From the NCBI GenBank assembly GCA_014764515.1, contig JACXWD010000004.1, positions 30,768 to 79,526 of the forward strand: a DNA stretch of 48,759 nt, given 5' to 3'. The position numbers and the translations under genes are program-made. The notes under the pieces are model-generated. The model did no database searches. It saw nothing but the letters and a program-made list of their open reading frames with translations, and had not been told where the DNA came from. The DNA comes from Candidatus Polarisedimenticola svalbardensis (lineage in GTDB: Bacteria > Acidobacteriota > Polarisedimenticolia > Polarisedimenticolales > Polarisedimenticolaceae). Of the stretch, positions 30,118 through 48,759 are shown in pieces (the first letter of the stretch is position 1; each line of letters starts with the position of its first letter).

Positions 30118-31929
30118 TTACCACCCGCAGGTGCGGTCCTTGTTCTGCTCGTTCAGCCATTCGTGCAAGGGGGCGAAGTAATCCAGCAGCGCACCGCCGT
30201 CCATCTTCGTGGTGCCGGCGACGGCGTACAGCGCTTCGGGCCAGGCCCGGCTGGCGCCCATGGCCAGCATGTCCCGGAGCTTCTTGCCGGCGGCATCGTT
30301 GGCGTAGATGGAGCACTGGTGCAGATCGCCTTCGAACTCCGCCGCCTGGCACAGTGCCCGGTGGAACTGGAACTGCAGGATCTGGGCCATGAAATACCGG
30401 GCATACGGCGTGTTGGCCGGCACGTGATACTTGGCTCCCGGATCGAAGTCGGCCTCGGTTCGCACCACCGGCGGCTTCACGCCCTGGTATTTTTCCCGCA
30501 GCTCCCACCAGGCTGCATTGAACTCTGCCGGCGGGGTCGCTCCCGAGAACACCTGCCAGCGCCATTGATCCACCACCATGCCGAACGGCAGGAAGGCGAT
30601 CTTCTCGAGGGCATGGCGCATGAGACGGCCCCGATCCCCCGCTTCCTGCGGCAACGCGTCCAGAAGGCCGACCTTCACCAGGTACTCCGGAGTGATGGAC
30701 AGGGCGACGGTATCCCCGATCCCTTCATGGAAGCCGTCGTGGGCGCTGTTGCGGTAAAGCGGATCCTGGATGTTGTAGGCCCGCTGGTAGAAGTTGTGCC
30801 CCAGTTCGTGATGGACGGTAGTGAAGTCTTCCTCGTTGATCTCGATACACATCTTGATCCTGAGGTCGTCTTCCCAGTCGATGTCCCATGCCGAAGCGTG
30901 GCAGACCACTTCCCGGTCCTCCGGCTTGCTGAACAGCGATCGTTCCCAGAACGAAGCGGGTAGAGGCTCGAATCCAAGAGAGGTAAAGAACGCTTCGCCG
31001 TACTTCACCATGTCGATTTCGGTCACGCCCTTGTCCCGAAGGATACGGGTGACGTCCACATCGGCGCCGGCGTCTTCAGGGTCCATCACAAGGTCGTAGA
31101 TGTTCAGCCAGGACTGGGCCCACATGTTGCCCAGCAGATGGGCCGGGATCGGCTCTCCCGGTTTCACCAGGTCGGATCCGTATTCCTCGGCAAGCTCCGC
31201 CCTGACGTGGCAGTGCAGCGCTTCGTACAGCGGCTTGACCTGCTTCCACAGCCGGTCCAGTTCGGCGGCGAACGCCTCAGGCGGCATGTCGTACATTGCC
31301 CGCCACATGGCGCCCAGGTCGGCCATACCCAGCTCCTGGGCCCCGGCGTTACCCAGTTCGGCGAACCGGGCGTATTTGCCACGCATCGGCGGCGAGATGG
31401 ACCGCCAGCCGGTCCATGCTTCCAGCAGTTCGGTGGTATCCCGGCTGGCCGCCATGGTGCGGCTGAGATCGCCCAGGGTCTTGCAGTCGCCGTCACCTTG
31501 AGGGCAGTACTTGCCGGTGCTGTACATGCTGGTGAGAGACGCGGCGATACCTGCAAGCTCGGACTGCTTCGACGGGTCTGCCGGCGCCGCAAGGGGCAGG
31601 GACAGCTTGATCATGTTCAGCTTGCGAGCCAGGTCGTAGGAAAGTTCAAGGCCGGTGAACCGGGTCGCGTCCTTGGCCAGCGCCGCAGTTCGGGCCATCA
31701 GCTCTTCGTATGCGAGGGATGCGATGTTCTCGGTGTCCAGGTTGATGAAGTTTTCCTGGACCCAGGCGGCGCGCTCTTTCCGTATCCAGAGCTCGAGCAA
31801 CTCCTCCTCGGCGGCGGCGACAAAAGCTTCCACCTCGGCCGGCGTCGGCGCCGGAACCGGGTCCTGCCCGGCTACCGGGACGGCTGTCATCAGGATCATC
31901 AGGGCAACGATGGAGAGCACGTTCTTCAT
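30118..31929 (-). CDS. Peptidase family M2 (ACE-like dipeptidyl carboxypeptidase)
   Basis: A 603-residue zinc peptidase with a signal peptide at residues 1-21, so it works in the periplasm or outside. The zinc site is HELGH (His374, His378) with Glu402 in FHEGIGDT, the same 24-residue spacing as angiotensin-converting enzyme. SILEL-type start features ([11 protein letters not shown]) and the C-terminal [13 protein letters not shown] with YAND also match M2. Bacterial relatives release dipeptides from peptide C-termini. It supplies short peptides in a window rich in amino acid catabolism genes and is co-transcribed with the alcohol dehydrogenase. Confidence 0.94.
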
Positions 31930-41691: not shown

Positions 41692-41753
41692 CACTAATGT
41701 TGTTGCAACATATCATTCCAGGAGCGGTTTCTTCCGTTCCAAGGGGGCCAAGC

Positions 41754-43370
41754 ATGAAATCAAAGGGATGGAGAATCTTTCTGCTCGCTGTGATCGCCGT
41801 TGCGTCGTTCACCCAGCTGTCCGCCGCGGCGCTTGAGCCGGGCACCTATGTGCCGGGCCGGGTTCTGGTGAAATTCAACGGTTCAGTGGATGCTGACGCC
41901 CGGTTGGCGATCCACGGCCGGGTCGGCACACGGATCGCCCAGCGGTTCCGCCTGGATGCCGATCTGCAGATGGTGACCTTTCCGGAAGAACTGGATCTTG
42001 GACCGATCCTGGACTTTTACCAGAGCTTGCCCGAAGTGCGCTACGCCGAACCGGACTTCATCTACCACACCCAGGTCATCCCGGGGGACGCTCGCTTCGG
42101 TGAACTGTGGGGCATGCACAACACCGGCCAGAGCGGGGGCGCCTTCGACGCCGATATCGATGGGCCGGAAGGTTGGGACGTCAACACTGACGCCGCCCAG
42201 ATCATCATCGGCAGTATCGATACCGGCATCGACGTCAACCATGAAGACCTGGCCGGCAACATCTGGGTCAACGCCGACGAAATCCCCGGCAACGGCGTGG
42301 ATGACGACAGCAACGGCTACATCGACGACGTCAACGGGTACGATTTCTACAACGGCGACTCCAACCCTTACGATGACCACAGCCACGGCACCCACACCAT
42401 GGGCACCTCCGCCGCCCGAGGCGATAACGGCATCGGTGTTGCCGGTGCAGCGTGGTCGGCCAGGATCATGGCCCTGAAGGTCTGCAGCGCAGGTGGCAGC
42501 TGCAACGTCAGCGCCGCAATCGCAGCCACCGACTACGCCACAGAGAACGGCGCCCGCCTCACCAGCAACTCCTGGGGAGGTGGTGGGTTCGGCCAGGCGA
42601 TGAAGGACGCCATCGACCGGGCCGACGCCGCCGGTGTGCTGTACATCGCCGCCGCCGGGAACAACGGCAGCAACAACGACGCCAGCGCCTTCTACCCGGC
42701 GTCGTACGCCAGCCCAAACATCATCTCGGTGGCCAGCATCGACCGGTTCGGCGGAAAATCCAGCTTCTCCAACTACGGCGCCACCTCGGTGGACCTGGGC
42801 GCACCGGGCAGCTCGATCCTGAGCACCACACCCGGCAACGGCTACAGTACCTTCAGCGGCACATCCATGGCCTGCCCACACGTCACCGGCGTGGTGGCCA
42901 ACATCATGGGATTCAACCCGAACCTTGCCCACACGGAGTACAAGGACATCGTCATGGCTTCCGTCGTTCCCAGCGACGCCATGGCCGGCCGGACACTGAC
43001 CGGCGGCGTGCTGAACCTCAGGAACGCCCTGGACCAGACCCCGCCTGTGATCATCCCTCCCGGCAACAACCCGCCGGTGGCCGATCCCGGCGGCCCGTAC
43101 AAGGGACGTGCGTTCAAGGCGATCACCTTTGACGGATCCGGCTCCTTCGATCCCGACGCCGCGGAACTGTCCGATTACGTCTCGACCTACGTCTGGGACT
43201 TCGGCGACGGCAGTGTCGTCTCCACATCCACTCCGACCACAACCCATATCTACGGCGCCGGAAACAACGACTACGTCGTCACCCTGACGGTGAAGGACAG
43301 GTACCGCATCTCCGGCGATCCGGTGACCACCACCTGCAGGATCCGTGGAGGAGGCCGTAAAGCCAAGTGA
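41754..43370 (+). CDS. Secreted subtilisin-like serine protease with PKD domain
   Basis: A 538-residue S8 peptidase. Residues 1-25 are a signal peptide. Residues 30-105 form an inhibitor I9-like propeptide (VPGRVLVKFNGSVDADAR). The catalytic triad is Asp156 (IGSIDTGID), His211 (SHGTHTMG) and Ser371 (SGTSMACPHVTG). AAAGNNGSN holds the oxyanion Asn. Residues 440-530 are a PKD domain (VWDFGDGSVVS, YVVTLTVKD). AAGGGGG six bases before the ATG at 41754 supports the start. It degrades protein outside the cell and shares its stop base with the next gene. Confidence 0.95.
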   Translation: MKSKGWRIFLLAVIAVASFTQLSAAALEPGTYVPGRVLVKFNGSVDADARLAIHGRVGTRIAQRFRLDADLQMVTFPEELDLGPILDFYQSLPEVRYAEPDFIYHTQVIPGDARFGELWGMHNTGQSGGAFDADIDGPEGWDVNTDAAQIIIGSIDTGIDVNHEDLAGNIWVNADEIPGNGVDDDSNGYIDDVNGYDFYNGDSNPYDDHSHGTHTMGTSAARGDNGIGVAGAAWSARIMALKVCSAGGSCNVSAAIAATDYATENGARLTSNSWGGGGFGQAMKDAIDRADAAGVLYIAAAGNNGSNNDASAFYPASYASPNIISVASIDRFGGKSSFSNYGATSVDLGAPGSSILSTTPGNGYSTFSGTSMACPHVTGVVANIMGFNPNLAHTEYKDIVMASVVPSDAMAGRTLTGGVLNLRNALDQTPPVIIPPGNNPPVADPGGPYKGRAFKAITFDGSGSFDPDAAELSDYVSTYVWDFGDGSVVSTSTPTTTHIYGAGNNDYVVTLTVKDRYRISGDPVTTTCRIRGGGRKAK

Positions 43371-44791
43371 TGGCAACCTTACTCCGGATAGTGTTGCTCG
43401 TGGCCGTCCTGTCCGCCATGCTGGCGGGCGGGGCGGCCTGTGCGGCCGTATTCACCGTGGCTGGCGACGGCTCAGGCGATTACAGTTCGATCCAGGCTGC
43501 CATCAGCGCAGTCGGCAACGGCGACGAGATCGTGGTGCAGCCGGGGCGCTACCACGAAACGGTGAACTTCCTTGGGAAGGCGCTCACGGTCCGGAGCAGC
43601 GCCGGCCCGGCCAACACCTGGATCTTCCTCGAAGAGCAGACCAGGATCATCAACCTGAATGGAGACAGCACTCTGGAGGGGTTCACAATCACCGGAGGAA
43701 AGGCGCGGGTCGGGGGCGGTATCTGGGTGACGGACGGGGCCTCTCCGACCATCCGCGGCAACATCATCGAAGGGAACATCGCCGAATGGAACGGGGTCCT
43801 GCCGGCGTTCGGTGGCGGCATCGCCGTGGACCCGTTGTGCGAGCCGGTCATCACCCGCAACGTCATTCGCAACAACCTGGCGCTGGGAGACACCCAGGGG
43901 TTCTATGCCTACGGCGCCGGGATAGACCTGGCTGATGATTCCACCGCAATCATCGAGAACAATATTATCGAGAACAACAGCACTACCGATTCCGGGGGCG
44001 GAGTCTCTCTGGGGGTCGCCGGTGTGACCACGCCTGTTTCCATCGTTCACAACACCATCATCGGGAACCTGGCGGGACAGGGTGGAGCAACCACCTCCAT
44101 ATTCGGAGGCGGCATCCTCCTGGAAGTGGACTCCTCGGCGACGATCCGCAACAACCTCATCGTCGACAATGATGCCACTGCCACCGGGCAGGGCGGCGGG
44201 ATTCACTTCTTCTCCAACGGCTTGCAGGGCATGACCTACGAAAGCAACGATTTTGACGCCAATATCCCGGACGACTGCGCCGGCCTGCCGGGATCCAAAT
44301 GCTCTAGCGGTCAGTTCGCAGTCGCGCCCCTGTTCCTGGATCCGGCTGCAGGTAATTATCGGCCCCGTTCCGACTCACCGATCCTGGACCTGGGAACGGC
44401 AACCGGTGCGCCGGCGCTGGACGCCGACGGACAGGCAAGATCCGCCGATGGAGATCTGGATGGGATCGCCGCACCGGATCCCGGCGCCTTTGAGAATCAA
44501 CGGGAGACCACACGGCTGTCGTTCCAGGACTCCATTTCCCTGACATGGGACGGAAGTATCAATCCTGCGGTCCGGTTCGAACTGTATCGCGATGATCTTG
44601 CCGCTCTAGGCTCGACCCTGCTGGGAGCCTGCCTGGAGCCCGACCTTGCCGCTACCGGTGCAACAGACGGCACCGTACCGGCAGTCGGGGGTGGATCGCT
44701 TTACCTGGTACGAGGAGTGGACATTGCATCCGGTCGACTTGGATTCGGGTCCGACAAGACCGAGCGGCTGGCCGCGACCGAGTGTCCCTGA
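43370..44791 (+). CDS. Secreted right-handed parallel beta-helix protein
   Basis: A 473-residue exported protein with a signal peptide (about residues 1-26). Residues 35-330 are a beta-helix: GSGDYSSIQAAISAVGNGDEI opens it, followed by turns of the type GFTITGG, PTIRGNIIEGN, PVITRNVIRNN and TIRNNLIVDND. DPGAFENQ closes the helix. The last 90 residues resemble a fibronectin-like tail. The fold binds or cleaves polysaccharide or simply sits at the surface. The ATG at 43370 overlaps the protease stop (TGATG); a GTG three bases earlier is possible. GGAGGAGG is 15 bases upstream. Confidence 0.88.
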   Translation: MATLLRIVLLVAVLSAMLAGGAACAAVFTVAGDGSGDYSSIQAAISAVGNGDEIVVQPGRYHETVNFLGKALTVRSSAGPANTWIFLEEQTRIINLNGDSTLEGFTITGGKARVGGGIWVTDGASPTIRGNIIEGNIAEWNGVLPAFGGGIAVDPLCEPVITRNVIRNNLALGDTQGFYAYGAGIDLADDSTAIIENNIIENNSTTDSGGGVSLGVAGVTTPVSIVHNTIIGNLAGQGGATTSIFGGGILLEVDSSATIRNNLIVDNDATATGQGGGIHFFSNGLQGMTYESNDFDANIPDDCAGLPGSKCSSGQFAVAPLFLDPAAGNYRPRSDSPILDLGTATGAPALDADGQARSADGDLDGIAAPDPGAFENQRETTRLSFQDSISLTWDGSINPAVRFELYRDDLAALGSTLLGACLEPDLAATGATDGTVPAVGGGSLYLVRGVDIASGRLGFGSDKTERLAATECP

Positions 44792-47436: not shown

Positions 47437-47685
47437 TGCGTTAACTTTTCCCCAAATTCAGGGCCGTTTCCGGCCTGTGAAGGCCTGAACAAGTTGTGCA
47501 CGGTTCTTGCAATACATCGCTCCCTGGACACAAGGCTTTACGGAAACAGGGGCCACACAATGGTGCGAGACCTTAAAACCGAACCGCGACTCAGCCTTCA
47601 CCAGGTGTGGTCTGAAAATTTGACGACGGAAGATTCGCGGGCTTCCCGAGTCGTAAAAACGACAGAGTTTTTCAAGGAGGGTACG

Positions 47686-48732
47686 ATGAAGAAGGTATTG
47701 TTCATCCTCGCCGCCCTGATCATCATCGCAGCGCCGACAATGGCGTTCCATGATGAAGGCGTGGCTCACTGCAACGGCTGCCATACCATGCATAACAGCC
47801 AGGACGGCGCGTTGGTTGATGCCGACAGCCCCCTGGGCAACGCGTATCTGCTCACCGATGCCGACCCCAGCGATGTCTGCATCGCCTGCCACGATCACAT
47901 CGAGCACACTCTCGGTACCGATCCGCTGGCCCCCCCGGCACTCAAAGGCGCCGGCAACTTCGTGTATCTGCTCGAAGACAACCTGAATGACGGCCACAAC
48001 GGCGCCCTGAACCCGATCGGTGGCGACGCTGCCGGTCACAACCTGGCTGCCCCGGGCCACGGTATTGCTCCGGACGCCACCCTGACCTCCGCCCCCGGCG
48101 GCACCTTCCCGGCCTCCGTGCTGGGCTGCACTTCCTGCCATGACCCCCACGGCAACGCCAACTTCCGGTTCCTGTACGGCATCGGTGGTGTCCAGGACGG
48201 CCTGGCTACCTTCACCAACCCGGCCCCGGACGCAGAAGGCCTGAGCATGTTCTTCGGCTCCGAGTCCCAGACCTCCCACACCGCCTACCAGGGCGGCATG
48301 AGCGCCTGGTGCGCCAACTGCCACGGCGACTTCCACCAGGAAGCCGGCGGCCGGCTCGAGCACCCCTCCGGATCCACCATCGGTGGCTCCGTTGCCAACA
48401 CCTACAACCTGTACAACGGCACCATCGACCAGCTGGGCGGCGTCCAGGCAACCGCCTATCTCGCGGAAGTTCCGTTTGATGATGCGGCCAACACCACCGC
48501 CGGCACCGCCGGCCCGACCGCCGGCAGCCAGGTCATGTGCCTGACCTGCCATCGCGCCCACGCCACGTCCGCTCCGGACGCCGGCCGCTGGGACTTCAGC
48601 GTAACCTTCCTCCACGAGGACGGCCTCGAATCCGGTTCCTACGCGATCCCGGATCCGTACGCCAACCTGAACCAGCGTTCGCTCTGCAACAAGTGTCACA
48701 ACAAGGACGCGGGTGACGTCAACCCGTTCTAG
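47686..48732 (+). CDS. omcS: OmcS-like hexaheme c-type cytochrome
   Basis: A 348-residue exported cytochrome with a signal peptide at residues 1-20. Six CxxCH heme sites start at Cys29, Cys65, Cys148, Cys209, Cys285 and Cys334. The order and the flanking words (HCNGCHTMHNSQDGA, APGGTFPASVLGCTSCHDPHG, GGMSAWCANCHGDFH, QATAYLAEVPFDD, CLTCHRAHATS, SLCNKCHNKDAG) follow Geobacter OmcS closely. OmcS polymerises into extracellular filaments that carry electrons to minerals. This protein is about 80 residues shorter. AAGGAGG stands five bases before the ATG. No porin-cytochrome genes are in view, so export through the outer membrane is not explained here. The gene is complete, 27 bases from the window end. 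Confidence 0.88.
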   Translation: MKKVLFILAALIIIAAPTMAFHDEGVAHCNGCHTMHNSQDGALVDADSPLGNAYLLTDADPSDVCIACHDHIEHTLGTDPLAPPALKGAGNFVYLLEDNLNDGHNGALNPIGGDAAGHNLAAPGHGIAPDATLTSAPGGTFPASVLGCTSCHDPHGNANFRFLYGIGGVQDGLATFTNPAPDAEGLSMFFGSESQTSHTAYQGGMSAWCANCHGDFHQEAGGRLEHPSGSTIGGSVANTYNLYNGTIDQLGGVQATAYLAEVPFDDAANTTAGTAGPTAGSQVMCLTCHRAHATSAPDAGRWDFSVTFLHEDGLESGSYAIPDPYANLNQRSLCNKCHNKDAGDVNPF

Positions 48733-48759
48733 TCCTTCACGCACAGTACGACTACCAGA

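Follow-up and report, generated by a model that had tools for sequence, protein, structure and literature searches.

In this Acidobacteriota genus, an OmcS-family hexaheme cytochrome gene, omcS_A, lies directly ahead of a cluster of osc (omcS-companion) genes whose ancestry it does not share: phylogenetic comparisons show that the osc machinery and a second hexaheme gene of the cluster, omcS_B, are native to Acidobacteriota, whereas omcS_A nests among sequences from Krumholzibacteriota. This conflict between subunit and machinery appears to be the part that is new. The omcS_A product probably belongs to the OmcS family of c-type cytochromes as a subunit of extracellular filaments, a reading drawn from its family, ligands, predicted fold and linkage to osc genes. 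The window, the whole 48,759-nt stretch that was analysed, corresponds to contig positions 30768–79526 (C156) of a 3.69-Mb MAG, and was compared with L007/G319, a MAG of the same genus (uncultured Acidobacteria FO_M_Acidobacteriota_03.1). The features in and before the gene, in window numbering, are as follows.

47496–47510, + strand: candidate sigma-54-type promoter GTGCACG-N4-TTGC, 190 nt before the omcS_A ATG (tentative)
47511–47673, + strand: genus-conserved leader, 94% identical to L007 over 195 nt
47674–47680, + strand: Shine-Dalgarno AAGGAGG, 5 nt ahead of the ATG (sequence)
47686–48732, + strand: omcS_A, OmcS-family c-type cytochrome with six hemes, secreted; 348 aa, of which 328 in the mature form
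47686–47745, + strand: signal peptide, predicted cleavage between A20 and F21 (sequence; alignment with residue 1 of 6ef8)
47746–47751, + strand: mature Phe1-His2, His2 being one of six invariant distal ligands (99/99 homologues)
47770–47784, + strand: heme site 1, CNGCH (this and the other heme sites from sequence and homologue alignment)
47791–47793, + strand: His36, numbered 16 in the mature chain, equivalent to the OmcS His that binds a heme in the next subunit (96/99 homologues)
47878–47892, + strand: heme site 2, CIACH
48127–48141, + strand: heme site 3, CTSCH
48310–48324, + strand: heme site 4, CANCH
48538–48552, + strand: heme site 5, CLTCH, with His289 equivalent to OmcS His332
48685–48699, + strand: heme site 6, CNKCH

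The omcS_A frame opens with ATG at 47686 and closes with TAG at 48730–48732. Its Sec signal peptide ends in ...TMA, ahead of FHDEGVAHCNGCHTMHNS, and the cleavage predicted from sequence gives a mature N-terminus, FH..GVA.C.GCH, that is also the N-terminus of OmcS in 6ef8. Exactly six CxxCH motifs are present (CNGCH, CIACH, CTSCH, CANCH, CLTCH and CNKCH). The earlier note had described a hexaheme protein with the six motifs and the mature start of OmcS, and this description was borne out: the reading frame is real, and its match to OmcS extends over the full length and lies far beyond chance. A minus-strand frame covering omcS_A (47458–48744) was taken as the shadow of a high-G+C reading frame and set aside.

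The leader is conserved within the genus, with 100% identity to L007 across 47496–47555 against about 81% in the surrounding region. The candidate promoter, identical in L007, differs from TGGCACG-N4-TTGC at two positions, one of them in the GG of the -24 element, and one of the genes of the cluster encodes a sigma-54 activator. Matches of this type ahead of other Acidobacteriota hexaheme genes are better in L034, L038 and L050, and perfect in L053; across 53 upstream regions, the best match averaged 3.15 mismatches versus 3.44 after shuffling, and because this is barely better than shuffled sequence the sigma-54 promoter remains a lead. GEMM cyclic-dinucleotide riboswitches occur upstream of Geobacter cytochromes; a GEMM element in the omcS_A leader was rejected, as an Rfam search of 47496–47685 returned no match. 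The predicted RNA fold of the leader was not significant (z-score -0.87), and when the leader was sought in the phylum sample it was found in this genus only. Elsewhere in the window (41697–44791), a secreted subtilase with a PKD domain is followed by a right-handed β-helix protein, both likely extracellular.

Searched against all PDB chains with phmmer, omcS_A matched OmcS (6ef8/6nef) at E=1.5e-39 and gave no other credible match, and an OmcS-family profile of 41 homologues matched OmcS at E=1.3e-90 over residues 1–407, its full length. OmcS of Geobacter sulfurreducens (GSU2504), which stacks into conductive threads outside the cell, and omcS_A share six hemes in the same order, the mature N-terminus, the aligned axial His residues, the predicted fold and an osc neighbourhood; they differ in phylum, in sequence (39% identity) and in length. 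The shortfall, put at about 80 residues in the earlier note, is 79 (328 aa in mature omcS_A against 407 in the OmcS PDB chain) and falls in loops, at OmcS positions 152–185, 302–312, 363–379, 387–392, 57–63 and 67–72. None of the missing residues lies within a heme motif, and the ligand set is retained, in keeping with the proposal that the loops are altered.

In OmcS numbering the axial His residues are 2, 13, 16, 51, 110, 144, 147, 243, 257, 332, 335 and 404. All 12 are present in omcS_A, six in the CxxCH motifs and six distal, which is exactly what six bis-His hemes need; among 99 six-heme homologues, 11 of these columns are invariant (99/99) and His16 is His in 96. We take His16 to be the cross-subunit donor in OmcS, acting on the heme of His332 in the 2019 structures, and the counterparts of both residues are retained in omcS_A, so that the presumed inter-subunit ligand is kept. 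Such retention is not automatic, because the His16 counterpart has been lost in two Geobacter-type downstream paralogues and in one other protein (L036). One OmcS heme takes a His ligand from the adjacent subunit (PMC9473688, PMC12307469). The OmcS-family paralogues at L177:491-3446 and L036:1123-2217, which have no His16 counterpart, are candidate non-polymerising members.

An AlphaFold2 model of omcS_A, built as a heme-free monomer from a 41-row alignment and no templates, reached a mean pLDDT of 67 and a pTM of 0.68, with some weak stretches; low confidence in the N-terminal heme-binding part is expected, since the model contains no heme. The OmcS structure was released in 2019, later than the training cut-off of the AlphaFold2 version used. 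Foldseek returned a single PDB match for the model, 6ef8 (E=1.1e-11), and VIA-align superposed the two with Z 17.5 and 3.6 Å over 290 residues, so that the predicted fold is that of OmcS. OmcE, OmcZ and the archaeal filaments were absent from the Foldseek and VIA matches, an absence that carries no weight as evidence. OmcE and OmcZ are, like omcS_A, multiheme cytochromes, and both polymerise, OmcE also through a cross-subunit His, but they have four and eight hemes respectively rather than six (PMC9473688). The OmcS-family profile search gave no sequence match to either, and omcS_A is of neither type.

The surroundings of omcS_A had been described as not Geobacter-like. This is true of the upstream side only, and otherwise reflects an edge effect, because the window ends right after omcS_A: an osc cluster begins within about 160 nt of the omcS_A stop, beyond the window, and takes up the 12 kb of contig that follow. 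In contig numbering, it reads as follows.

78453–79499: omcS_A
ending near 81747: beta-barrel protein, 696 aa (homology and position; no Pfam match)
81759–82337: lipoprotein, 192 aa
82301–83452: lipoprotein, 383 aa
83449–85173: SurA/PpiC-type prolyl isomerase (PPIase), 574 aa
to 87085: cytochrome with 26 CxxCH, 664 aa
87082–88314: cytochrome with 16 CxxCH, 410 aa
to 90166: two NHL propellers
90163–91197: omcS_B, 344 aa, six CxxCH, 45–48% identical to omcS_A
after omcS_B: PAS histidine kinase, then sigma-54 activator

The set is that of an osc cluster (hexaheme, beta-barrel, small proteins, PPIase, 26-heme cytochrome, multiheme cytochrome and NHL). In G. sulfurreducens, an eight-gene block, GSU2500-2493, adjoins the OmcS-like GSU2501 and has been tied to OmcS maturation and secretion (PMC12977616). 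PMC13194489, describing Shen et al. 2025, gives this block the name osc, with OscH acting in folding, OscEFG in secretion and OscD in morphology, and equates OscI with GSU2495 and OscJ with GSU2494; GSU2495 is a protein of about 70 kDa with 26 hemes (PMC12977616). The Acidobacteriota cluster is colinear with GSU2501-GSU2493 from the hexaheme through the beta-barrel, two small proteins, PPIase, 26-heme (OscI) and multiheme (OscJ) cytochromes to NHL, and gene order would suggest which of its members correspond to OscE, OscF and OscG. It differs in having no gene between hexaheme and beta-barrel, a second hexaheme after the NHL genes, an OscJ-like protein with 16 CxxCH, and a linked histidine kinase and sigma-54 activator. 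Two loci from Desulfuromonadia related to Geobacter, L175 and L177, have the same order, as do over 20 loci of other phyla. Among the phyla to which loci holding both hexaheme and osc genes are annotated are Krumholzibacteriota, Zixibacteria, Calditrichota, Gemmatimonadota and Fibrobacterota; Nitrospirota loci hold partial sets. Paired OmcS-type subunits are common, as several Krumholzibacteriota and Calditrichota-type genomes carry two (L009, L011; G399, G400, G401).

Two other identities for omcS_A were weighed against that of a filament subunit. It is very improbable that the protein is a soluble periplasmic multiheme cytochrome (c3/c7/NrfB-like) resembling OmcS in its CxxCH words only. The short, generic Pfam matches (Paired_CXXCH_1, Cytochrome_C7) would fit such a protein, and NCBIfam, which contains no OmcS model, likewise gave generic matches; however, OmcS is the sole full-length match by profile and by fold, with nothing comparable to any soluble family, and the distal His residues all align and the osc neighbourhood is present. 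The soluble family that the earlier note named as a possible best match was thus not found, and a c3/c7/NrfB-type identity is refuted at the sequence level.

The other alternative, that omcS_A is the counterpart of OscC (GSU2501), a cluster-bound and perhaps periplasmic protein that starts, caps or feeds a filament made of omcS_B or of nothing, is more serious, though we consider it unlikely. OscC, OmcT and OmcJ belong to the same family as omcS_A; OscC likewise immediately precedes the secretion block (PMC12977616) and is given as periplasmic in PMC13194489, and in G. sulfurreducens OmcS alone is known to polymerise, OmcT, OscC and OmcJ not (PMC12977616). By sequence, omcS_A cannot be separated from the OscC/OmcT-type paralogues: it is 39% identical to OmcS and 38–39% to OscC-type proteins, equally far from other paralogues, and it did not group with OmcS to the exclusion of the Geobacter paralogues but is sister to the whole Geobacter-type set, the Desulfobacterota/Nitrospirota subunits forming the sister group (support 98) of those of Acidobacteriota and FCB phyla. 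This comparison used relatives with 76–78% identity to OmcS, G. sulfurreducens itself being absent from the genomes searched. Being co-orthologous to all of the Geobacter set and placed where OscC is, omcS_A is therefore not to be called OmcS proper. Against an accessory role, His16 is retained, and the single-contig Acidobacteriota MAG G327 (L043, CP070706), which has osc genes, gave a single OmcS-family match, located where omcS_A is, so that the hexaheme in this position is probably the filament subunit in that genome; this argument is not airtight, as the listed completeness of G327 is 74%. The same argument has been made from Geobacter species that have GSU2501 but lack OmcS, and GSU2501 has been suggested to be possibly the ancestral protein, with a wire of its own (PMC12977616).

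The beta-barrel, lipoproteins, isomerase and 26-heme cytochrome of this genus are 28–53% identical (by gene) to those of other Acidobacteriota versus 19–41% to those of Krumholzibacteriota. In a concatenated tree, which set the expectation before the subunit tree was seen, the machinery falls inside an Acidobacteriota clade with a support of 100, and joining it to Krumholzibacteriota was rejected (p=2e-39). The subunit gave the opposite picture: omcS_A is 75–79% identical to its nearest Krumholzibacteriota homologues versus 48–56% to Acidobacteriota outside the genus, and it is nested among the former (99/96). Monophyly of the Acidobacteriota subunits was rejected both for the genes adjoining the beta-barrel (p=0.0086) and with the native clade (p=0.0008), whereas omcS_B groups with Acidobacteriota subunits (98/89). 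The exact donor is not fixed, because the innermost Krumholzibacteriota fork around omcS_A has only moderate support (81/66). Given this conflict, omcS_A most likely arrived by horizontal transfer and took the place of the original gene at its own site. Such an exchange on the spot is the best fit because DNA similarity to Krumholzibacteriota loci is confined to the omcS_A ORF and because in other Acidobacteriota, too, no more than about 100 nt separate a hexaheme frame from the beta-barrel frame.

A conflict of this kind could also arise with no transfer, through hidden paralogy (an old A/B duplication followed by losses) or from differences in evolutionary rate. Several genomes do hold two subunit types, and subunits evolve more slowly than machinery overall, the median subunit/machinery distance ratio over 190 locus pairs being 0.38. 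We nevertheless regard this explanation as improbable: the eight pairs of the window genus with Krumholzibacteriota have the lowest ratios of all (0.08–0.17), and those with Acidobacteriota outside the genus are near 1 (0.85–1.06). Nesting inside Krumholzibacteriota is a position that hidden paralogy does not explain, and the distance from omcS_A to L008 (0.33) is smaller than that between some Krumholzibacteriota (0.48), which is impossible from an old duplication. That a Krumholzibacteriota gene was joined to an Acidobacteriota contig during assembly or binning can be given hardly any credence. The source MAG has an estimated contamination of 4.86%, but L007/G319 is colinear with it for 18.9 kb (81.7% identical DNA), a stretch that takes in omcS_A and both flanks, and a chimeric contig is unlikely when two MAGs share the arrangement; in addition, the ATPase gene flanking omcS_A is 93% identical within the genus versus 64–69% within the family and order. 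Horizontal replacement thus remains our preferred reading, and we lean towards the view that cytochrome nanowires are modular in evolution, such that the gene of the conducting subunit can pass on its own from one phylum to another and serve a resident machine for secretion and assembly whose proteins are only ~20–40% identical to those of the donor.

The earlier expectation of an OmcS-family hexaheme in another phylum holds, since the host is an Acidobacteriota MAG and the family assignment follows from sequence and fold. The OmcS-type system is patchy in the phylum, with an OmcS-family member in 16 of 396 genomes and none in the four further genera that were sampled from the host's taxonomic family. 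The phylum is not a first for OmcS-like proteins, because an OmcS-like pair was reported in 2021 from an Acidobacteriota MAG, Ca. Polarisedimenticola svalbardensis AM4 (PMC8528874), of which omcS_A is a further example; the accessible text of that report does not tie the pair to the osc cluster, which was described later, or mention subunit exchange. Besides counterparts of omcS_A and omcS_B (the latter L101, G319:C211), the L007/G319 genome has a third OmcS-family gene on another contig (L091, G319:C213; 60% identical to omcS_A). The host encodes more multiheme cytochromes at G000:C55:3373-11346 and G000:C167:8083-8475, among them a 605-aa frame rich in CxxCH repeats; these may represent another electron-export cluster.

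In the mechanism we propose, omcS_A would be exported by Sec and receive six hemes, its folding aided by the downstream SurA/PpiC-type prolyl isomerase (OscH-like), and would pass through an outer-membrane assembly of the beta-barrel and two lipoproteins (OscEFG-like). Subunits would then polymerise head to tail, His16 of one completing heme ligation in the next, and the resulting continuous heme chain would carry electrons from the periplasmic 26-heme (OscI-like) and 16-heme (OscJ-like) cytochromes to an extracellular acceptor. Filament formation by omcS_A is likely; experimental evidence of filaments from short OmcS-family members outside Geobacter was sought and none was found, and the physiological, respiratory role of OmcS filaments themselves is disputed (PMC11077965).

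In conclusion, this genus of Acidobacteriota would possess a complete OmcS-type wire system, comprising subunits, the means to fold and secrete them, and the cytochromes that feed them, and since clusters of this kind occur in loci of several other phyla, OmcS-type wires are not a Geobacter speciality. The naturally short omcS_A, with all of its ligands kept, marks the loops that are dispensable in OmcS-type subunits. If our reading of the ancestry conflict is true, the genus has two wire subunits encoded in a single operon, one borrowed and the other native, and the conflict makes testable how specific the assembly machine is for its subunit and whether one assembly system could take the wire of another.
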